DNA of 33,098 bases from Methanosarcinales archaeon (GTDB lineage Archaea; Halobacteriota; Methanosarcinia; Methanosarcinales; Methanogasteraceae): contig JAUVWP010000007.1 in assembly GCA_030604085.1 (NCBI GenBank), positions 1 to 33,098 of the forward strand. Direction: 5' to 3'. Under the pieces are notes generated by a model. It saw nothing but the letters and a program-made list of their open reading frames with translations, was not told the DNA's origin and ran no database searches. Each line of letters begins with the position of its first letter. The stretch's first letter is position 1. This document shows positions 4,277 to 33,098 of this stretch, piece by piece. Position numbers and translations under genes: made by a program.

Positions 4277-4975
4277 TCAACTCTTTCTCGATTTTGAATT
4301 ATTTTCTTGTTTATTACGAATAACTTTCACATCAAATCTGTTATTCCATATAAACATGGTATTGAATACATCTTGGTTATCGTAGAATGCTTTTTGAAGC
4401 GGTTTTTCGATGGGACTGAATATCAGTTTAGACCATGCCGACGATCTCAATCCATCGAGCTCTCTATCGGTGAATTCGAAAAAATACAATGTACCGTTTT
4501 TGAATATTGTATGCCATTTATGCATCCCTCTTACCCAACCAAAAAGAACATCTTTCATGAAATTGGGCGTTTCTATGTATCCGCTTTTTGCTACTCGTTG
4601 TATTTCTCTGCATGCCTTCTTCGGATCATCTACATGTTCTAATACATGAGAACAATATAAAAAATCGATAGACTTATCTTTAAATGGTATATACTGCACA
4701 TCAAAATTTAAAAAAGGTCTTTCGTCTCTAATAAGCTCTTCCGTTCTATGTTTTGTCACTTCATTAAACTTATCTGAAAGAATTGTAGCATAGGGGAAAG
4801 GATAATGCCCCCCTCCGACATCGAGAATTAGTGACTTGTTTTTGATGCTATCAAAGCTAAAATATTTTGATTGATAAGAAAATCTATCCTCGTTTATCCG
4901 TTTATTTCTTTTAAAATGGATTTCAATACTAAAAAAAATAAATCTTTTAGCAATTCTTTTTACCAGGTCATGCAT
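4277..4975 (-). CDS. SAM-dependent methyltransferase (class I)
   Basis: A 232-residue protein with a glycine-rich SAM loop ILDVGGGHYPFP (50-61), where GGG replaces the usual GCG, and CSHVLEHVDDPKKACREIQRV (about 108-128). The C-terminal half contains GYIETPNF and a tryptophan/phenylalanine-rich segment, typical of Methyltransf_11 proteins in glycan loci. It lies four bases upstream of the dehydrogenase gene and is the second of three methyltransferases of this kind in the first 6 kb. A basic N-terminus (KRIAKRFIFFSIEIHFKRNKR) could associate with the membrane. The substrate is unknown. Confidence 0.85.
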   Translation of the reverse strand: MHDLVKRIAKRFIFFSIEIHFKRNKRINEDRFSYQSKYFSFDSIKNKSLILDVGGGHYPFPYATILSDKFNEVTKHRTEELIRDERPFLNFDVQYIPFKDKSIDFLYCSHVLEHVDDPKKACREIQRVAKSGYIETPNFMKDVLFGWVRGMHKWHTIFKNGTLYFFEFTDRELDGLRSSAWSKLIFSPIEKPLQKAFYDNQDVFNTMFIWNNRFDVKVIRNKQENNSKSRKS

Positions 4976-5007
4976 AAGATAAAACTCCTATATAGGCATA
5001 CGATTTT

Positions 5008-5724
5008 TTAGTCAATGCTTTCACCACAAGTGTTCTGTTGAATAATTGCATAGTTAGCACCACTATCTTTTGTTAAACCAATATCACAACTGAAACCTTC
5101 GCAATTTGTTTCGATGAATACCTTCCAACTTTCAGGACTCCAAAAATTAATATGTCCTTTATAAGTATCTGTTCGTCCATTCGGGACCGTAACTAATAAT
5201 GTTCCATTATTTGCAATCATTTTAAGAATATTTTTCAAGGCTTTATCCGGAAACAACAGATGTTCCAATACTTCGGTGCAAAAAAGCACATCAAATTTTT
5301 GTGAACTTCCTTTATATATATCAAATTGAAAAAAACTTGCTTTCGGGCATGTTTCCTTTGCTATTTTTAGTGCGGCGCCTGAATATTCAAAGCCTACCAG
5401 ATTTGCAACGTCATTTTTTTCACGCAAGAATTTTAAAAGATGCCCCGTTCCACATCCAATATCTGCAACATTTTTTTGATTGAATATTATTCCTTTATCA
5501 CAAAGAATGTTTATGATTTCATGGTAGAAAGTAATTCTTTCGGGGTTAAGATACTCTTTTACGATTTTTGGATTGGAATAAAATTTATTTAGTATTTCCA
5601 AGGAGTTCTGTTGTATTGGGTCTTTGATTAGCAGACCTTGCGCAGGATGCTTAGGGGAACTCCATCGTATTTCCAATCCCAACAAAGAGAATATTTTTTT
5701 AACAATTGATTCCATTTTAGACAT
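5008..5724 (-). CDS. SAM-dependent methyltransferase (class I)
   Basis: The SAM-binding loop is NVADIGCGTGHLLKFL (about 85-100), followed by GFEYSGAALKIAKE, with an acidic residue after strand 2, and CTEVLEHLLFPDKALKNI. Near the end, INFWSPESWKVFIE is the pattern seen in sugar or lipid methyltransferases. The longest frame begins with GTG at 5730, but ATG at 5724 (238 residues) or ATG at 5715 are more likely; none has a strong ribosome binding site. The gene follows the flippase relic, and the 80 bp before it hold a T-rich/A-rich stretch. The substrate is not deducible. Confidence 0.85.
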   Translation of the reverse strand: MSKMESIVKKIFSLLGLEIRWSSPKHPAQGLLIKDPIQQNSLEILNKFYSNPKIVKEYLNPERITFYHEIINILCDKGIIFNQKNVADIGCGTGHLLKFLREKNDVANLVGFEYSGAALKIAKETCPKASFFQFDIYKGSSQKFDVLFCTEVLEHLLFPDKALKNILKMIANNGTLLVTVPNGRTDTYKGHINFWSPESWKVFIETNCEGFSCDIGLTKDSGANYAIIQQNTCGESID

Positions 5725-5807
5725 GTTCACTTTTCCATTTTATTAAGCGGCATAATAATTCTTTAGACGATGCTTTTTTTTTAAACTCATTTATATATCA
5801 TCTCCGT

Positions 5808-5993
5808 TCATGCACCGGGATTTGTGGAAGTGGGGTCGACTATCATGGAACACCTATCAAACCTATTCATCTGCGTCACTATTTCCTTTAACTCCTCATA
5901 TATTTTCCTATCAAATTTCAATACAAAAATCCCATACATCACCGTACTCAAAAAAACCAAAATGAAACTGCCCAGTACAAAATCTTCAGTGGA
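5808..5993 (-). pseudogene. relic of a Wzx-type flippase gene (C-terminal end only)
   Basis: Read on the minus strand, this 61-codon frame has no start codon; a stop lies just upstream at 5994-5996. It encodes VMYGIFVLKFDRKIYEELKE followed by IVTQMN. The intact flippase at 8843-10321 ends VVYGFLILKFDRKIRDELKE, IATQMN, so the two tails match almost residue for residue, and at DNA level they are roughly three quarters identical over about 75 bp. Everything N-terminal of the last membrane helix is missing. The final codons (about SMIVDPTSTNPGA) do not match. The relic starts ten bases after the GT61 gene ends and marks a former second flippase here. Confidence 0.8.
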
Positions 5994-6003
5994 TTACAGA
6001 ATT

Positions 6004-7251
6004 CTAAACATCCCTCAATATCCAATCCAAAGTTTCTTTAAATGCTTTCGTATCCACCTCAAAATCCCTCCATGGAAGAGGAGAGTTTCCGGGGGCATCT
6101 TCCCCTAAAAGATAATAATATTCGTTTCCAACTTGGTTGGCAAGCCACCAAAAGTTTGCATCATAAGACGGAGAAAATATCTCCAGAATTTTAGCGTTTC
6201 TGCAGAACACGGTGTTACTCAAACCCGCGCCATGCGGTCCAACGACAATCTGGGCTTCAGCGCAGAGTTTAACCTGTTCCAAAAAATTAAGTTCGGACAT
6301 TTGAACTATTTCAAATCCAATATCTCGCAGATAATCTTCTACTTCTTCTTCATTGATGATCTTTCGATAAAGGGCATCGTTCCTGGAGATATAAATTAAT
6401 CTGTGTGGTTCAGCCACATCTTTAGGAATAAAGGATTCTCTTAAAAAATCACAACCCCATTTTGATACGCTTGATAACGAGGGAACGAATAGATTCTCGC
6501 ATAATAAATGATCGCCATCTTTAATCTTAAGCAATTTCTCTTCTGGAACTCCCAATAGACTCAACGTCTCTAAATGGAATCTCTTCAGATTGTATGGAAC
6601 AATCAAATAATCAATTTCGCCAATTACATCTTCAAGTAATTTTAAGCGGGGCAAGCTTTCAAAAATCCAGTGGTAATAGCCAGTAGTACCTGTAGAGGTT
6701 ATCGTAGCCAGACATTCTTTTCTAAATTGGGGTTTATGAATATAAGATTTGAAAACTTCATATTCTTCTATTGGTTTTCCCAATTCGGAAGTGAACTCAG
6801 CAAAAACTTTGTTATCACAAGAGATAACCACACCATTTTCATTTACAATCCTTGCATTTTTCAAAAAACAAAGATGTGCTTTTGGAGATAAATAGGATTC
6901 ACCGTATTCACTGAAGGCAGGACGGATTTCATTAGTATTATGGTTCAGTCTTTTCAATTCCACCAAATGTTCAGGAAAAATTTCTTTTATCCAGCTTCCT
7001 TCCATTTGCGGCGGTATGGGATCTTTGAACCACTGTTCGACCGAATATATAAATCCTTCCGGATGGTAAGGGGAAGGGCGATAGTGGTCAATTCCCCTAC
7101 GTACTCTCTTTGCAATCGCTGTTGTAACGATCTTTCTGTCTCTACCACCGATGAGCAACTGTTCGAGAACAAAGAACATCTCCCACATTGTCCGGTTCTT
7201 CTCTCTATCACGAGCGGATTTAACAAGTTTTATGAGGTATGATTTACTCAT
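6004..7251 (-). CDS. GT61-family glycosyltransferase (DUF563)
   Basis: This 415-residue protein matches the GT61/DUF563 plan: GYYHWIFESLPRLKLLEDV in the middle (a histidine-tryptophan motif after a variable N-terminal domain), IDYLIVPYNLKRFHLETLSL, then RLIYISRNDALYRKIINEEE and the signature QVKLCAEAQIVVGPHGAGLS followed by NTVFC. GPHGAGLSN is diagnostic for the family. GT61 enzymes in prokaryotes are retaining or inverting transferases in capsule and LPS clusters; sugar and acceptor are unknown here. The ATG at 7251 lies nine bases after the previous stop. The N-terminal 100 residues are rich in basic and aromatic residues and not recognisable. Confidence 0.88.
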   Translation of the reverse strand: MSKSYLIKLVKSARDREKNRTMWEMFFVLEQLLIGGRDRKIVTTAIAKRVRRGIDHYRPSPYHPEGFIYSVEQWFKDPIPPQMEGSWIKEIFPEHLVELKRLNHNTNEIRPAFSEYGESYLSPKAHLCFLKNARIVNENGVVISCDNKVFAEFTSELGKPIEEYEVFKSYIHKPQFRKECLATITSTGTTGYYHWIFESLPRLKLLEDVIGEIDYLIVPYNLKRFHLETLSLLGVPEEKLLKIKDGDHLLCENLFVPSLSSVSKWGCDFLRESFIPKDVAEPHRLIYISRNDALYRKIINEEEVEDYLRDIGFEIVQMSELNFLEQVKLCAEAQIVVGPHGAGLSNTVFCRNAKILEIFSPSYDANFWWLANQVGNEYYYLLGEDAPGNSPLPWRDFEVDTKAFKETLDWILRDV

Positions 7252-7260
7252 AGGTTTTTG

Positions 7261-8007
7261 TCAACAACGTTTCTTTATAAATTCAATCAATCTACCTATC
7301 ATCGCTGAACGCAGAAGTCGATCAACAGGCGTCTGCACGGATCGCGCAGTAAGGTCAACCTCAATTCCTTCAGTCTCACATAATTTAACAGCTTCTTTTA
7401 CCCATTTCCCCTTGACAACTCCGGTACAGAAGTACGGGATTGGCGAATCGCCGGTAACACTCAAAAAAGGAGCGTCCAGATCATTAGTTCGTTTTGTACC
7501 GTTTAGTTCCAGTTCCCATGCAGACTCTCCGTCACGCAAAAGTTCGAGAAGAGTCTGTTTATTCCAGATGGCAGCCTGGAGCGATAAACGGTAACCAGCC
7601 CCTTTGCTGATTTCTCCAACCAGAGGATTGTCCGAACACGGCAGATCGGGACCTGGACATGGATACAGTCTGAGGCATCCTGCGCCTTTATCCCCCATAT
7701 ATGTTATTAACCCCTCAATCACCGTCGTATCTATATGCTGGATGAGAAGATAATCCTCTATCAGTACAATCACATAAGGCTGCGGTATCTGTTCCAGCAT
7801 AGAGCGAAAATCAGAAGACCAATCAGTCTCATCACCGACCGCAATGGTCTTCACCCTCTCGTGGTCATACTTGAGATGGTTTGTACCCAGATATACGGGA
7901 TATGGGCAGTCCTGCCAGTATCTGAAGAAAAGCGTAAAGAACGGCTCCCAGAGGTCCTGATACTTATCACATGACGTTACCAAAATGGCTACTTTGCTCT
8001 TGTTCAT
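7261..8007 (-). CDS. putative GT-A-like glycosyltransferase of unknown specificity
   Basis: The 248-residue protein begins KVAILVTSCDKYQDLWEPFF, the opening seen in small transferase-like proteins of capsule loci, and carries YVIVLIEDYLLIQHID (about 80-95), where the acidic pair could replace a DxD motif. A second half has GYRLSLQAAIWNKQTLLELL and GESAWELELNG, which resemble the acceptor region of these proteins. There is a good ribosome binding site (AGGTGA, seven bases before ATG 8007). It is encoded between the DUF268 and GT61 genes with short gaps. I did not recognise a named family, so the transferase call rests on fold-like patterns and context. Confidence 0.6.
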   Translation of the reverse strand: MNKSKVAILVTSCDKYQDLWEPFFTLFFRYWQDCPYPVYLGTNHLKYDHERVKTIAVGDETDWSSDFRSMLEQIPQPYVIVLIEDYLLIQHIDTTVIEGLITYMGDKGAGCLRLYPCPGPDLPCSDNPLVGEISKGAGYRLSLQAAIWNKQTLLELLRDGESAWELELNGTKRTNDLDAPFLSVTGDSPIPYFCTGVVKGKWVKEAVKLCETEGIEVDLTARSVQTPVDRLLRSAMIGRLIEFIKKRC

Positions 8008-8013
8008 ACATTT

Positions 8014-8805
8014 TCACCTGCCATATTCCTTTTTCTTGAACCAGAAGAAACCACACGCGTAGTTACTCTCCTCGAAGTCGCTGATCTGCAGATCTCTCCT
8101 ATACACCCCCTCATCGTCCACACCCGAAAGTTCCACCAGCACGAGATCACTAAAGTACTGCAGTATCTGATTGGGGGAATGGATGCGATGTGCATTGAAA
8201 CAGACCTTTGGTCTGCCCACTGGAAGTGCGAAAAACAAGTTACCGTCTTTCGCAAGCACTCTTGAAAGTTCTTTAGCTGCCATCTCTGTGCCTTTGGGAT
8301 TCAGTGGGTCCCCATATCGCCCAAGCCCTATATGCTCGGCAACGTGCAGACAGGACAAGGACTGTACAGCGCAATCGTCAAACGGCAGGGATAATATGTC
8401 TCCTGACAGCGGTTCAAAGTTATTCAGACGCGCGTTTAGTGGGCATATGTCTAATGAGATCACATCGGTGAAACACGTTAGAAAGCCAACGAAGTCAACC
8501 TTTGATCCAACATCCACGTGTAGTTCAGGTTTATTCTCCATAATTCGCTGAGCAGCCCATACATTAAGATAAAAGTAATGCGAATCGAAAGAACTGGTAG
8601 AACTCTTCTCATGTATGCACGGATAGAGATCGGACATTTTGATGGGTTCTGCTCCATTCAATCGAGGATACTTCATGAGATCTCCAACATATCCCCCATA
8701 TCGTGGGATTGACATAATCAGTTGATATGGGTTGACAATCGGGCTCATAAGCCGGTACAAAAGATATAGCGACTGTTTGACTCTCATCCGCATCTTCTTA
8801 TGCAT
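8014..8805 (-). CDS. DUF268 protein, methyltransferase-like
   Basis: The 263-residue protein contains the DUF268 pattern: SSFDSHYFYLNVWAAQRI, HVDVGSKVDFVGFLTCF, LDICPLNARL, then SLSCLHVAEHIGLGRYGDPL and GTEMAAKELSRVL. DUF268 is a degenerate class I methyltransferase fold in which HVDVGS takes the place of the SAM loop and a histidine-rich AEHIGLGRYG block follows strand 4. Members are common in surface-polysaccharide clusters; activity has not been settled to my knowledge. The ATG at 8805 has AGGTGAT about eight bases upstream. It lies between the flippase and the small transferase in one direction, so it probably acts on the same glycan. Confidence 0.82.
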   Translation of the reverse strand: MHKKMRMRVKQSLYLLYRLMSPIVNPYQLIMSIPRYGGYVGDLMKYPRLNGAEPIKMSDLYPCIHEKSSTSSFDSHYFYLNVWAAQRIMENKPELHVDVGSKVDFVGFLTCFTDVISLDICPLNARLNNFEPLSGDILSLPFDDCAVQSLSCLHVAEHIGLGRYGDPLNPKGTEMAAKELSRVLAKDGNLFFALPVGRPKVCFNAHRIHSPNQILQYFSDLVLVELSGVDDEGVYRRDLQISDFEESNYACGFFWFKKKEYGR

Positions 8806-8842: not shown

Positions 8843-10321
8843 TCACAACCAATCTGGCAATGGCATATTCATCTGTGTTGCAATCTCTTTTAACTCATCG
8901 CGTATTTTCCTATCAAATTTTAATATCAGAAACCCGTATACCACTCCGCCCAAAACGACCGGGACTAACGTCAACCACACGTTTGACAGCGGTACAAGCA
9001 TACGATACCCCCCTACGAGTAACGACATCAAACCAGAAGCTATCAGGATGTTCATCAGCGTGGTGTGTATCACTCTGATTGCTATCATCCGTGATAATGC
9101 CCGACGCGCCAAAACTGCATTCAGCACCATGGATAACAAAGTCGCAATTGCAGCGCCGTCAATACCCATCACCGGAATTAATATCAAATTCAGCACGATA
9201 TTTGCTGCTGCAGCCATAGCAGTTGCTTTGAATGCATCCTTTTGCCGATACAACGCGCCAAGGTACATCGTAAAAAAAAACTGGAAAATATTTACTAGTT
9301 GTACGATAAGCAATATCACAAGTGTCGTATACCCCTGTGCGAATTCCGCATCATAGAAAAAATATAGCAGTTTATCACCCAACAAAATCCCCCCGGCTAC
9401 TACAGGAACAGCCAATATCAGTGAGTAGCTAAATGCGCGGGAGATCGACTCCTCGATGAGTCCGAAATCTCCAATCTTCCCCCACCGGCTAACCTTGGGC
9501 CACAACGTTGAACGAAGTGCAATTGTTGTGAGTGATGATAAAGCAGCGAGTTGCAATGCAATGAGATAGATGCCCACATCTGCGTTGCTTAAATAATAAC
9601 CAATTATGACCCGATCTGCATACGAATACATCATAATCCCACCTGACGTCAAAAATATCCAGAACGAGAATGTCGACAGGCTTTTGATATGCCTCCAACC
9701 AAAACGCGTAAGGTGCAGGTCAAAAAAACGGAATTGCACTATGGCGCCAACAACCATCCCGCAAACAAAGCCGCCAGCCAACCCTGCAACACCAAACCCC
9801 AAAAAAACCGCGGCGACCTGCACGGTAATACGCGAAACGTCGTTGATAAAGCCACATGTTGCATGTATCCCCATTTTGCCGCGACCGGCAATACCACTTG
9901 AAACCGTTCCATACACAAGCGATACAGTTAACGCCACTATAAGCCAGACGAAGATCCCTTCGCTATCGAGATCCACAAAATAGCTGCGAAATGCGATCAG
10001 AGCAAGCAGAGACATAGTCACAAAGATGGAGCGCAACAGAACGAATGCGCTGAAGTATGCGTCCGGCTCTTCGCCCTCGCTGATGCGCTTCGTTGCAGCG
10101 ACACCAAACCCCCCATCACTTATTATTCCAATGATACTATAATATGCCACAAACAGAAAATATGCACCCAGAACACCTGCACCCACTACACGCGCAAAAT
10201 ACATCGTACTTAAAAATCCGATGAAAGTAAATGCGATCTGCCAGATGAACGACACTATACTCTGCCGCTGCACTTCCCCTATGCCCATGATGCGCGAGAG
10301 AATAGTATTTAACTTGAACAT
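8843..10321 (-). CDS. Wzx/RfbX-type oligosaccharide flippase (MOP superfamily)
   Basis: A 492-residue integral membrane protein with about 12-14 hydrophobic helices; it starts with a short amphipathic segment and then SIVSFIWQIAFTFIGFLSTM. Small-residue-rich helices (GVLGAYFLFVAYYSIIG, GVAGLAGGFVCGMVVGAIVQ) and charged loops follow the polysaccharide-biosynthesis protein pattern. It would move a lipid-linked oligosaccharide across the membrane. The last helix and tail, ending LKFDRKIRDELKEIATQMN, recur in the relic at 5808-5993. An A/T-rich stretch around 10374-10386 (GCTTAAAAAACC on the minus strand), 55-65 bp before ATG 10321, could be its own TATA box. No specificity can be read from the sequence. 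Confidence 0.9.
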   Translation of the reverse strand: MFKLNTILSRIMGIGEVQRQSIVSFIWQIAFTFIGFLSTMYFARVVGAGVLGAYFLFVAYYSIIGIISDGGFGVAATKRISEGEEPDAYFSAFVLLRSIFVTMSLLALIAFRSYFVDLDSEGIFVWLIVALTVSLVYGTVSSGIAGRGKMGIHATCGFINDVSRITVQVAAVFLGFGVAGLAGGFVCGMVVGAIVQFRFFDLHLTRFGWRHIKSLSTFSFWIFLTSGGIMMYSYADRVIIGYYLSNADVGIYLIALQLAALSSLTTIALRSTLWPKVSRWGKIGDFGLIEESISRAFSYSLILAVPVVAGGILLGDKLLYFFYDAEFAQGYTTLVILLIVQLVNIFQFFFTMYLGALYRQKDAFKATAMAAAANIVLNLILIPVMGIDGAAIATLLSMVLNAVLARRALSRMIAIRVIHTTLMNILIASGLMSLLVGGYRMLVPLSNVWLTLVPVVLGGVVYGFLILKFDRKIRDELKEIATQMNMPLPDWL

Positions 10322-10398: not shown

Positions 10399-11436
10399 TC
10401 ATCGCAATTTCTTCAAATCCGCTTCCACCATCATCTTCACCAGTTCCCGAAGTCCAACCTTCGCCTCCCAGCCCAGCTTCTCCTTAGCCTTCGTTGGGTC
10501 TCCTAACAAAAGCTCCACCTCGGTAGGTCTATAATACCGAGGATCAATCTCGATCACAACATCCCCTGTCGCCAGGTCAACTCCAACCTCATCCACGCCT
10601 TCTCCCTGCCACCCAATCTCAATTCCAACCTCTGCAAACACAAGCTCTGCAAACTCCCTCACAGAATGCGTCTTGCCAGTCGCAATCACATAATCGTCCG
10701 GCTCGTCCTGCTGGAGCATGAGCCACATCACTTCAACATAATCTCCTGCAAACCCCCAGTCTCGCTTTGCGTCCATATTACCCAGATAAAGTTTATCCAG
10801 CAGTCCCTTTTTTATCCTCGCTGCTGCCATCGTGATCTTCCGGGTAACAAACGTCTCGCCGCGAATCGGAGACTCGTGATTGAACAGGATGCCGTTACAT
10901 GCGAACATATCGTAAGCTTCGCGGTAGTTTACGGTAACCCAGTAGGCGTACACCTTGGCTGCAGCATACGGGCTTCTCGGGTAGAACGGGGTGGTCTCCT
11001 TCTGCGGAATCTCCCGGACCTTGCCGTAAAGTTCACTGGTCGAAGCCTGATAGAATTTTGTTTTCTTTTCCATGCCAAGGATCCGTATAGCTTCCAAGAG
11101 TCGCAGAGCCCCGATTGCATCCGCATTTGCAGTGTATTCAGGTGTTTCAAATGAGACCTGAACATGACTCTGTGCAGCGAGGTTGTAAATTTCATCGGGT
11201 TGTGTTTCCTGGATGATCCGGATTAAGTTTGTCGAATCTGTCAGGTCGCCATAGTGCAGGAAGAAATTCACGTTTCTCTCGTGCGGGTCTTTGTACAGAT
11301 GGTCTATTCGTTCGGTGTTAAAGGAAGAAGATCTTCGCTTTATGCCGTGTACGATGTATCCTTTATTCAGGAGGAACTCGGCGAGGTATGCGCCATCCTG
11401 TCCTGTGATTCCGGTTATCAGGGCTGTTTTTGTCAT
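10399..11436 (-). CDS. gmd: GDP-mannose 4,6-dehydratase
   Basis: Gmd converts GDP-D-mannose to GDP-4-keto-6-deoxymannose, the precursor of fucose, rhamnose and perosamine. Diagnostic blocks are [19 protein letters not shown] with a TGxxGxxG loop, [50 protein letters not shown] and the catalytic [13 protein letters not shown] (Tyr-x3-Lys). [20 protein letters not shown] is almost invariant in Gmd. ATG at 11436 is chosen because GAAGGTGG lies about six bases upstream; the longer GTG start at 11445 would fall inside that ribosome binding site. No GDP-fucose synthase (wcaG) or Rmd gene occurs in the window, so the final 6-deoxy sugar is unknown. Confidence 0.95.
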
Positions 11437-11516
11437 GGTTACCACCTTCTGTGAAATGCGGTTTTGTGTTTACTTATTGATAACTCTATCATTAAAAATA
11501 TTACGCCATCTTTAAT

Positions 11517-13954: not shown

Positions 13955-14058
13955 TTTCCCCTATAAACCAATCCACTAATGCATGCCACTCCAAGCAGTC
14001 GTTCTGTGAGATACGAACATACAAACCCCGCGCCACCTGTTATAATTATTTTCATCAT
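13951..14058 (-). pseudogene. relic of an SDR epimerase 5' end (relic b), 35 codons
   Basis: From ATG 14058 the frame reads [20 protein letters not shown] and a short tail ending VYRGK, then TGA. This is the first strand, glycine-rich loop and first helix of an SDR epimerase, with the third glycine of GxxGxxG changed to cysteine. The TGA overlaps the start codon of the nucleotidyltransferase (ATGA). It follows the HEPN/MNT pair by 47 bp. It cannot be an enzyme; it may be a dead 5' end retained as a translational coupler. Confidence 0.78.
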
Positions 14059-14104: not shown

Positions 14105-14449
14105 TCAGATCAATACACCGCCCCCTACCGCATCCCCTATAAACAAGTTCCCTTCATCCACCATACGATCGAACTCTTCTATCGTGTAACACAGCGGCTC
14201 TATTGGCAGGTCAGTCAAACCCAGGATAGTCGCAATCCGCTTATGGAATCGCTCCTTAAAATCTCCAACGATGATTATATCGATATCGCTGCCCTCGTTC
14301 AAATCTTTTCTTACGAATGATCCGAAGACGATGATCTTATGAACGTCATACATCTTACGCACTTCTTTTGCAAACAGCCTCAATTTAGCATCTATTTCCC
14401 TATAAACTCCTTCACCCTTTCCAATATCAACTCTGCATACATTATACAT
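14105..14449 (-). CDS. mntA: minimal nucleotidyltransferase (MNT) domain protein, antitoxin of HEPN/MNT pair
   Basis: The 114-residue frame has the nucleotidyltransferase signature IIVFGSFVRKDLNEGSDIDI: GS at 43-45, then D55 and D57. MNT antitoxins such as MntA AMPylate or otherwise block their HEPN RNase partner. The fold is short, as expected for the minimal class. The only upstream ATG (14449) lies 58 bp inside the HEPN gene; the first 20 residues do not look like the family, so a start near the HEPN stop at 14392 (for example TTG) is possible. HEPN before MNT is the usual order. The pair sits between relics c and b. Confidence 0.85.
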   Translation of the reverse strand: MYNVCRVDIGKGEGVYREIDAKLRLFAKEVRKMYDVHKIIVFGSFVRKDLNEGSDIDIIIVGDFKERFHKRIATILGLTDLPIEPLCYTIEEFDRMVDEGNLFIGDAVGGGVLI

Positions 14450-14799
14450 TCTTCCGCGTCCTCCTTTTCATAATACTCGAAAGGGACCAGATCGCCTGCA
14501 ATCCCATTTGGGTATCGTGTTGGGATGTAGGCACTATCAAGAACCTTTGCCCCATGCTTACATTCCTCAAATCCCCCCTCAAATCTACTTACCTCTTTTA
14601 TGAGTTCGAATACCGAGTGCGTCAATATCTTTCTGAATCCTTTAGCATACAGAATCGACTTCAGAGCTTTCTCTGCGGCCTGCTGAGACTGAAAACACGA
14701 CCATTCATAGTCTTCTGAATATAAACTGTTTTTAGATGCTTTTAGATCCTTATCTGCCTGCTTAAACCATCTTTTTGATTCTTTTGGGTTCTCACTCAT
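14392..14799 (-). CDS. hepT: HEPN-domain protein, toxin of HEPN/MNT pair
   Basis: A 135-residue helical protein with SKRWFKQADKDLKASKNSLY and CFQSQQAAEKALKSILYAKG, the HEPN N-terminal helices. R56 and H61 in FRKILTHS form the R-x4-H RNase motif of toxic HEPN proteins, so it looks active. YIPTRYPNG near residue 92 is the usual end of the domain. A GGGTGA ribosome binding site lies six bases before ATG 14799. HEPN/MNT pairs act as toxin-antitoxin and phage-defence modules. This one is unusual in being inside a nucleotide-sugar operon, directly after an SDR relic whose stop codon overlaps the HEPN start region. Confidence 0.88.
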   Translation of the reverse strand: MSENPKESKRWFKQADKDLKASKNSLYSEDYEWSCFQSQQAAEKALKSILYAKGFRKILTHSVFELIKEVSRFEGGFEECKHGAKVLDSAYIPTRYPNGIAGDLVPFEYYEKEDAEECIMYAELILERVKEFIGK

Positions 14800-14923
14800 C
14801 CGCTTTCACCCTGCTACCCTCAACATTCTCTGCCCTTCCGGTGGGCATGTCATCGTTCTTCGAGAGTTTCTCGGCGAGATTTGAGCCTATAAATCCCGCG
14901 CCGCCTGTTGCCAGTGCCCTCAT
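14792..14923 (-). pseudogene. relic of an SDR epimerase 5' end (relic c), 43 codons
   Basis: ATG 14923 lies four bases after the stop of the intact epimerase. The frame reads MRALATGGAGFIGSNLAEKL, the complete strand-loop-helix start of an SDR, then an unrelated hydrophilic stretch (MPTGRAENVEGSRVKADE) that ends at TGA inside the HEPN start region. The nucleotide-binding glycines are intact, so truncation was by replacement of everything downstream rather than by slow decay. Confidence 0.8.
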
Positions 14924-14927
14924 TTTA

Positions 14928-15833
14928 TCAACCGATCAGTTCTTTGACCCCACGTTCCAGCGAATATTCAGGATTGTAACCAAGAACATCCCTTGCCCTC
15001 GTTATATCCGCAAGCGTATGCCCCACATAATTCTTCAAAGGATTCTCGATGTGCTGTGGCTCGATCTCTGTACCGAGTTCGCTGTTGAGGATGCGCACAA
15101 CATCATTGAAACTGTGCGATTCGCCTGTTCCGACGTTAAACACGCCGAATATGTCTTTTTTCATGGCGAGCATACATGCCTGAACCACGTCTTTAACAAA
15201 CACAAAATCCCGTGTCTGTTCGCCATCGCCATATATGACCGGAATTTCGTCTTTCTGTATCTCCCAAAGGAATTGCGAGACGATATTTGCGTATATTCCC
15301 TTTGCACGCTCATTGGGGCCATAAACCGAGAAAAATCGCAATCCGATCGAATTCACACCATATAACCCATGGTATAACTCCGCAATCCGCTCAATACACA
15401 GTCTCGCCTCTGTGTAGTAGTCGGTGACCCCGATCTTCGCATCCTCCCTATGTGGGGTGGGCACTCCATTGTACAGCGAGGAAGACGACGCAAATACAAC
15501 CTTTGCGCCCACATCCCTTGCAAACTCGAATACACTGATCGCATCATTGATTGCTGAGCCCACAAGTAGCGGATTCTCCTTGTACATTGGCGATGAAGAC
15601 GGTATACCAAGATGAACGATGGTGTCAACACCAGAGTCCGACATCCGGCTGCGGATATTGCCGCATGAATCCTCGATTAGGTCTATCTCGCTTTTCACGT
15701 CCTCCAGGTTGTCTATGTTTCCGGTATGGAGATTATCCAGCACCACGACATCATGTTCACCTGCCAGAGCAGATACCAGATTGGACCCGATAAACCCTGC
15801 TCCGCCAGTTACCAGTACGTTCATAGGCTCCAT
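14928..15833 (-). CDS. NAD-dependent sugar epimerase/dehydratase (extended SDR)
   Basis: The protein has MNVLVTGGAGFIGSNLVSAL, VVVLDNLHTG (the Asp that holds the NAD ribose), HLGIPSSSP, FASSSSLYNG, and LRFFSVYGPNERAKG. The catalytic Tyr lies in DYYTEARLCIE, where the usual Tyr-x3-Lys has Arg instead of Lys. I recall this Arg variant from a group of archaeal epimerases, so it may be normal for the subfamily. Substrate is probably a UDP- or dTDP-hexose. The longest frame starts at 15890; ATG 15833 has GGTG five bases upstream, and ATG 15824 (MNVLV) has GGAG three bases upstream. Either is plausible. It follows the TumE module; relic c follows it. Confidence 0.85.
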   Translation of the reverse strand: MEPMNVLVTGGAGFIGSNLVSALAGEHDVVVLDNLHTGNIDNLEDVKSEIDLIEDSCGNIRSRMSDSGVDTIVHLGIPSSSPMYKENPLLVGSAINDAISVFEFARDVGAKVVFASSSSLYNGVPTPHREDAKIGVTDYYTEARLCIERIAELYHGLYGVNSIGLRFFSVYGPNERAKGIYANIVSQFLWEIQKDEIPVIYGDGEQTRDFVFVKDVVQACMLAMKKDIFGVFNVGTGESHSFNDVVRILNSELGTEIEPQHIENPLKNYVGHTLADITRARDVLGYNPEYSLERGVKELIG

Positions 15834-15937: not shown

Positions 15938-16156
15938 TCAAACCTTCGGACACCGTCCTGCTAATTTCCGTATATATGTTTCCACACTTCTCCTTACAAT
16001 CTCCCCCATGCAGGAGTTTTGAACATCTTCTTCCGGTAATAATTCCGATATCCTTTCCATTTGTTTCACCACCTGAGGTGCGAGGAGATTCGTTCCAGAT
16101 GAAACAATCCTTCCTATGGTAGAGAAGACTTTACCAGAGAAACAAAACGTTACCAT
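15938..16156 (-). CDS. small protein following the TumE-like toxin, possible ribbon-helix-helix
   Basis: The 72-residue frame overlaps the TumE-like gene by 7 bp. Its second half (MGEIVRRSVETYIRKLAG) resembles the second helix of ribbon-helix-helix regulators. The first 20 residues (MVTFCFSGKVFSTIGRIVSS) do not look like the family and may be a run-on before a later start. GGAG lies about 11 bases before ATG 16156. It could be an extra antitoxin/regulator of the module or a remnant; I do not recognise it firmly. Confidence 0.4.
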   Translation of the reverse strand: MVTFCFSGKVFSTIGRIVSSGTNLLAPQVVKQMERISELLPEEDVQNSCMGEIVRRSVETYIRKLAGRCPKV

Positions 16157-16539
16157 CTACTTATCATCTCCTCGATTTCCAATAAAACATCCTTCAATCC
16201 GACTTCTTTCGATCGTCTCGGTACCTTCTCTCCTTTTACATGTTTATGGTGCGGATAAGTAGCGATCTCCAGATGATGGGGGGGGGCATTATCATATTTA
16301 AAAACCATTTCGTCATTTACATTCGCCAAATGAAATCCATACTTCAGGCGAATCATCTTATCTCTCTTTATATTTATCAGTTCCATAAATTGAAGTGTAG
16401 AGCCATCGAGCATCCCCAATATCCCATGAACTATTCCAATACTTCTCGATTTTACCTCATATTCAACATCTACGTTTTCAACGAATATTGAACTTCTTAT
16501 GAGGCTTTGAATCTCTGAGAAGTGATCTATCACCTGCAT
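16150..16539 (-). CDS. TumE-like toxin (DUF6516)
   Basis: The 129-residue protein fits the DUF6516/TumE pattern: YEVKSRSIGIVHGILGMLDG, LQFMELINIKRDKMIRLKYG, FHLANVNDEMVFKYDNAPPH and ATYPHHKHVKGEKVPRRSKE followed by VLLEIEEMI. The RYDNA-like and PHHKH blocks are the family's key features; histidines there are thought to be catalytic. Members are small toxins, presumed RNases or translation blockers, next to a small antitoxin. The start (ATG 16539) overlaps the upstream antitoxin gene by 10 bp, as expected for a TA pair. A poly-C tract at 16278-16284 lies inside the frame and could be slippage-prone. Confidence 0.8.
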   Translation of the reverse strand: MQVIDHFSEIQSLIRSSIFVENVDVEYEVKSRSIGIVHGILGMLDGSTLQFMELINIKRDKMIRLKYGFHLANVNDEMVFKYDNAPPHHLEIATYPHHKHVKGEKVPRRSKEVGLKDVLLEIEEMISRW

Positions 16540-16823
16540 GACTCAAGCATCCTCTCGATGACGATGCACTCTTTCTCAAGAAATCCAAGTGCTTCGTACT
16601 CAGCAGACCATACCATGGCATCCTGGTCGTCCCCGGCAAGTCCTTTCTCGAATTTTTCAAAAAATTCTTTGCTGCCCATTCCTTTTCTCTCTTCAAAAGC
16701 TATCAGCTTCTTCGTTGTTTCAGAGATGCTCCGGTCCAGCAAAAGCTTTTTTCTATTGAGTAATTGCCCCAACACGTCAATCGCTATCACAACATCAGGA
16801 ACCTCCAGCTTTATCACGCCCAT
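16530..16823 (-). CDS. antitoxin partner of TumE-like toxin
   Basis: The 97-residue protein contains TTKKLIAFEERKGMGSKEFF, EKFEKGLAGDDQDAMVWSAE and YEALGFLEKE. This acidic helical motif is frequent in small archaeal proteins encoded directly before DUF6516 toxins, so I call it the antitoxin. The ATG at 16823 has TGAGGCGAT three bases upstream. The N-terminal half (IKLEVPDVVIAIDVLGQLLN) resembles no DNA-binding domain I know. Just upstream lies SDR relic d. Confidence 0.72.
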   Translation of the reverse strand: MGVIKLEVPDVVIAIDVLGQLLNRKKLLLDRSISETTKKLIAFEERKGMGSKEFFEKFEKGLAGDDQDAMVWSAEYEALGFLEKECIVIERMLESCR

Positions 16824-32710: not shown

Positions 32711-32729
32711 CATCCATGCAATATCTGAT

Positions 32730-33043
32730 TGCGGGCTAGCCCGGGTAACCCGGCGTCACCTATCACCCGAAACCGCCGATATGCGGGGGGCGAAGCCAAT
32801 GGAAGACATATCAAACGCTATTTAAGATCGGATGCCCAACAATGAATCTCCGTCCTGCGGGGATGGCGTTGGTAGTGGGATCTGCCGGAGGGCAGGCTTG
32901 TTATCTCTGCTGCGGAAAACGGTTTAGGCCCGGAAGGGAGCGGACAATACCGCAGACGTTTCATCGCTTGTAGGGTCGCGGAGATGAGGCGGGTTTCCGA
33001 ACCACTGGATAGCGGGCAGGTGGCAACCATTGGCGCGCTCGCA
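32730..33043 (+). ncRNA. ffs: signal recognition particle 7S RNA (archaeal type)
   Basis: The strand carries the archaeal 7S signatures in order: ACCCGAAACCGCCGATATGC near 32770-32790, the helix 8 motif AGGCCCGGAAGGGAGC (32926-32941) with its GGAA tetraloop, and GGCGGGTTTCCGAACCAC near the 3' side. GCGGGC at 32731-32736 can pair with GCTCGC at 33037-33042 to close helix 1, so the RNA spans about 314 nt, typical for archaea. It binds SRP54 and SRP19 and targets nascent membrane and secreted proteins. Ends are estimated from pairing and could be off by several bases. Confidence 0.9.
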
Positions 33044-33098
33044 TTGTTCCTATGACTGGGCAAATCCGAATGATCCGCGCGATATTCTTCGGATTGAT

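Follow-up and report, generated by a model that had tools for sequence, protein, structure and literature searches.

A flippase 3'-end relic in a surface-sugar gene cluster of a Methanosarcinales archaeon

How does the end of a flippase gene come to lie, without the rest of the gene, in a glycosyltransferase cluster that also holds an intact flippase? The question is raised by one whole contig of an archaeal genome (Methanosarcinales, JAUVWP010000007.1), which was analysed over its full 33,098 nucleotides and is called the window below. A sequence-only reading of this DNA had proposed that a cassette ending in the flippase tail was exchanged or duplicated here, leaving the fragment as a scar. 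Of this proposal, one part stands: the fragment is a gene relic, and its cluster bears traces of exchange. A duplicated or swapped cassette bounded by matching tails is not supported. The relic is genuine but ordinary debris of gene turnover in sugar clusters and no marker of a mobile cassette.

The relic and its gene cluster

The genes run on the minus strand in the order NAD epimerase, GMD, flippase, DUF268, small transferase, GT61, relic, methyltransferases and UDP-sugar dehydrogenase. GMD is a GDP-mannose 4,6-dehydratase-like gene of the NAD epimerase superfamily (10399-11445), part of a block that many relatives conserve upstream of their flippase, and across the order the flippase often stands after such an epimerase/GMD block and before variable glycosyltransferases. 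The intact Wzx-type flippase (8843-10321, 492 aa) scores 55.1 bits with the Pfam family Polysacc_synt (PF01943) against a curated cut-off of 28.2. It is followed by the DUF268 protein (8014-8805), a small putative transferase with no Pfam match and no relative in the order (7261-8007) and an AT-rich Glycosyltransferase 61 (PF04577, 6004-7251), and this gene order bears out the earlier placement of these three genes between two flippase tails. The methyltransferase downstream of the relic (5008-5730) is also AT-rich and has only distant relatives in the order. Between it and the relic, the minus strand carries a 24-codon frame (MSLKKKASSKELLCRLIKWKSEHV) with a GGAG-like site, at 5720-5797. These may mark the beginning of one more lost gene; the frame gave no Pfam match.

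The relic itself, 35 open codons at 5864-5969 on the minus strand (peptide of 5969-5864, SFILVFLSTVMYGIFVLKFDRKIYEELKEIVTQMN), encodes the final membrane helix of a Wzx-type flippase together with its cytoplasmic tail. Positions 5808-5993 form an exact stop-to-stop frame of 60 codons around this narrower homologous part, and the residues of the frame beyond the TQMN motif (RFDRCSMIVDPTSTNPGA) are unlike flippase ends. In a blastn comparison, the relic is 77% identical over 79 nt to the tail of the intact flippase (8866-8944, minus strand, VYGFLILKFDRKIRDELKEIATQMN; E 7e-14), the two tails lying 3.0 kb apart (2.9 kb in the earlier estimate). A whole-genome search with a profile of 25 flippase tails, of which the relic is itself one row, matched 5859-5969 with an E-value of 7.6e-17, and the intact flippase alone, a query independent of the relic, recovered it from the 2.0 Mb assembly with an E-value of 9.8e-7. 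The relic peptide reached an alignment score of 106, compared with a mean of 28 (sd 4.3) and a maximum of 61 in 2000 shuffles. A scan of genome contigs gave only two loci with the flippase, and a search with the whole flippase found only the intact gene and the relic in the assembly (2.0 Mb, 94.6% complete), with no flippase body belonging to the relic elsewhere. Significant homology is thus restricted to the terminal part of a gene whose rest is missing from the assembly, and the profile, the independent query, the shuffles and the absent body together show that the relic is real and not a chance resemblance, confirming that a tail and last helix persist here without their gene body. Although the relic matches the tail of the Wzx/AglR-type flippases, the family whose score the intact gene reaches, more than 85% of the gene is gone; it is unable to work as a flippase, and no function is apparent for what remains.

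Cassette, duplicate or second flippase

The DNA between the two tails is not uniform. The GT61 gene has a G+C content of 38.7% (GC3 0.36) and the genes to its left have 33-40%, against 46% in the small transferase, DUF268 and the flippase. The G+C profile accordingly steps from about 39% to 46% between GT61 and the small transferase (7251-7261, near 7255), which assigns the relic and GT61 to one segment and the small transferase, DUF268 and the intact flippase to another. In other genomes, these genes are paired with flippases: DUF268 homologues lie directly behind flippases of the same family in two genomes (G074, G184) and a few genes away in a third (G145), and GT61 homologues lie 0.13-0.16 kb behind such flippases in two others (G147, G123). 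G019 also has GT61, but at a distance of 6.6 kb from the flippase, and no tail follows it there. The composition step and these pairings indicate that two flippase-associated pieces meet between the tails, and that the relic is part of a further flippase, located downstream of GT61. At the far end of the G184, G074 and G145 clusters, large membrane proteins look like putative AglB oligosaccharyltransferases.

These observations make it improbable that DUF268, the small transferase and GT61 moved as one cassette through recombination between flippase tails, as the earlier reading had it. The three genes are indeed flanked by two tails in the same orientation, and tails of this kind, conserved throughout the order, could act as shared ends; but the composition step falls inside the segment, DUF268 pairs with a flippase in other genomes, and Pfam detected no integrase or transposase in the genes between the tails (the small transferase being without any match). 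The alignment of the tails, proposed earlier as a way to find break points, shows ends that are 77% identical, with a longest exact match of 18 bp and differences at 17 of 35 third codon positions. The combination of near-identical ends and a uniform interior that characterizes an exchange cassette with direct repeats was therefore not found. An integrative element inserted at a gene 3' end was considered as well, and this attachment-site origin was dropped because both an integrase domain between the tails and a long identical core are lacking. A plasmid search of 4277-8010 found nothing, and Rfam and tRNA scans returned nothing near the relic, so that no tRNA-linked integration was detected. 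Duplication of the intact flippase also has to be weighed. The relic shares 73 of 105 nt and 21 of 35 aa with the intact tail, and is no closer to it than to the copies of other genomes: the flippases of G056 and G041, from other archaeal families, each match it at 79 of 105 nt, and that of G085 at 24 aa. Over the last 74 nt, the relic is identical to the intact copy at 57 positions and to G056 at 65; likewise, a search of whole genomes with the relic DNA gave 88% identity to G056 versus 77% to the intact copy. Judging from these comparisons, a recent duplication of the intact flippase is excluded. An old tandem duplication in this lineage, followed by loss of one copy's body, is rather unlikely. 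Two genomes (G056, G059) do carry tandem copies of which one has decayed, and AU tests on the short fragment (35 aa or 105 nt) did not reject the relic and the intact gene as sisters (p 0.50 for protein, 0.19 for DNA); trees of the same 105-nt and 35-aa tails place the relic without firmness, as does a site-by-site sign test. However, the relic is at least as close to other families, with which it shares the motif KIYEELK, the intact copy having KIRDELK.

We therefore favour, with a confidence of 0.72, the reading that a second, diverged flippase of the same family left its 3' end as the relic when its body was deleted within a mosaic of flippase-led segments. Differences between the relic and the intact copy in the last 20 codons fall mostly on third positions (2, 2 and 8 at first, second and third positions, respectively), which indicates that the two diverged as working genes and that the loss came late. 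The course of events that we infer is the following. A second flippase of the intact gene's family would have come from a lineage that was already well diverged, the cluster being a mosaic of segments of which several would have been headed by such a flippase. Once two segments had become adjacent, one flippase would have been redundant, and a deletion reaching from the GT61 stop codon to about 50 codons before the end of the second flippase may have taken away its body. At its C-terminus, GT61 aligns with its relatives as far as residue 413-415 of 415, and weak flippase homology (FRIL) may extend, with one in-frame stop, to 6014, that is, to the native GT61 stop codon (6004-6006). Since GT61 is intact to its last residues and flippase homology starts at or just after its stop, a single deletion would be the simplest event; its putative junction (5997-6014, minus strand) is placed by that weak homology. 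Among 186 genomes of the order, no relative has a complete flippase between the GT61 gene and the methyltransferase, the arrangement presumed to be ancestral.

Flippase fragments in related and comparable clusters

Fragments of the same flippase family occur in about nine other genomes of the order. Two Methanoperedens-type genomes show in-place decay beside a flippase that is intact. In G056 the fragments, one head and one tail piece, lie between GMD and an intact flippase, and G059 has a tail piece in the corresponding position. The tail is broken in G161, roughly the last third of the gene is all that survives in G011 and G015, and inner parts are left in G006 and G007. Two flippase heads of 117 and 97 aa are found in G058 (locus L046, contig C212, 4267-5775), a contig that also bears broken GMD copies. 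In G181, a head and a tail are fused in frame (locus L074, contig C21, 7001-7516), giving an open frame of about 190 aa that might be made as a mini-protein. The window's own family is represented by 17 genomes, among which the sole complete flippase copy found is that of the window. In two genera of this family, a divergent UDP-sugar dehydrogenase gene has different parts of an old flippase next to it (L044, 6196-6606, in G015; L045, 4547-5258, in G007).

This recurrence bears on two further explanations. It is very improbable that the 60-codon frame encodes a functional small membrane protein derived from the flippase tail: it is open, and conservation extends over its last 20 codons, but no relative has a counterpart in place, the residues after TQMN differ from other tails, and several of the other fragments in the order contain stops and frameshifts. 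An assembly error merging two strains at the flippase tail can hardly be the cause either. The genome is indeed a 181-contig assembly, yet such a join would require shared sequence, which the tails have for at most 18 bp, and similar fragments are present in relatives, including the genome of G161, which is about 99% complete. The second, diverged flippase that lost its body remains the reading that we prefer.

The relic is probably a new example of a kind of remnant known from bacterial O-antigen clusters. In the Gal-initiated O-antigen clusters of Salmonella, remnants of wzy persist where another gene has taken over, different serogroups keeping different parts (PMC3715488). There, as here, a truncated membrane-protein gene of a polysaccharide pathway is retained in the cluster; the Salmonella remnant, however, derives from the polymerase gene wzy and has known intact relatives at the same site, whereas the present one derives from a flippase in an archaeon and has no relative sharing its site. 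Similarly, the N-glycosylation clusters of Haloferax vary between strains and, in the part of that report considered here, appear as archaeal surface-glycan clusters of varying gene content with a predicted flippase, as in the window; they belong to a different archaeal group, and no gene remnants are described in that part (PMC5867893). Our results suggest that turnover in the surface-glycan clusters of methane-cycling archaea resembles that in bacterial O-antigen clusters, flippase-led segments being joined and redundant flippases left as fragments. They correct the cassette reading and offer about ten loci in the order for the comparison of break points.

Epimerase heads and toxin-antitoxin pairs

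Flippases are not the only truncated genes of the window. Searching the window with the proteins that it encodes revealed three 5' heads of NAD-dependent epimerase genes, all on the minus strand, with their bodies missing. The head at 16917-17027 matches the Pfam epimerase start with an E-value of 4.7e-9 and is followed on its strand by a TumE pair; that at 14819-14935 (E 1e-3) is followed on its strand by a HEPN-MNT pair, and the third lies at 13966-14055 (E 8.5e-3). The first two of these heads begin at the stop codon of the preceding gene. Where the bodies of these two epimerase genes would be expected, there is a HEPN-nucleotidyltransferase pair (14105-14799) in one case and a TumE toxin (16150-16823, including a small partner gene) in the other.

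Gene fragments adjoin toxin-antitoxin pairs or a toxin-type gene in several instances: two of the three epimerase heads of the window, the two flippase heads of G058, with HicAB and a MazF-type toxin after them, and the flippase tail of G011, which adjoins a PIN-domain gene. We advance only as a doubtful suggestion that toxin-antitoxin pairs repeatedly replace the bodies of pathway genes in archaeal surface-sugar clusters and leave a head or a tail behind, a pattern that was recognized post hoc. If this were true, such pairs may hold clusters in place during exchange. Near its far end, the window also carries a complete archaeal signal recognition particle RNA, at 32729-33044 on the plus strand.
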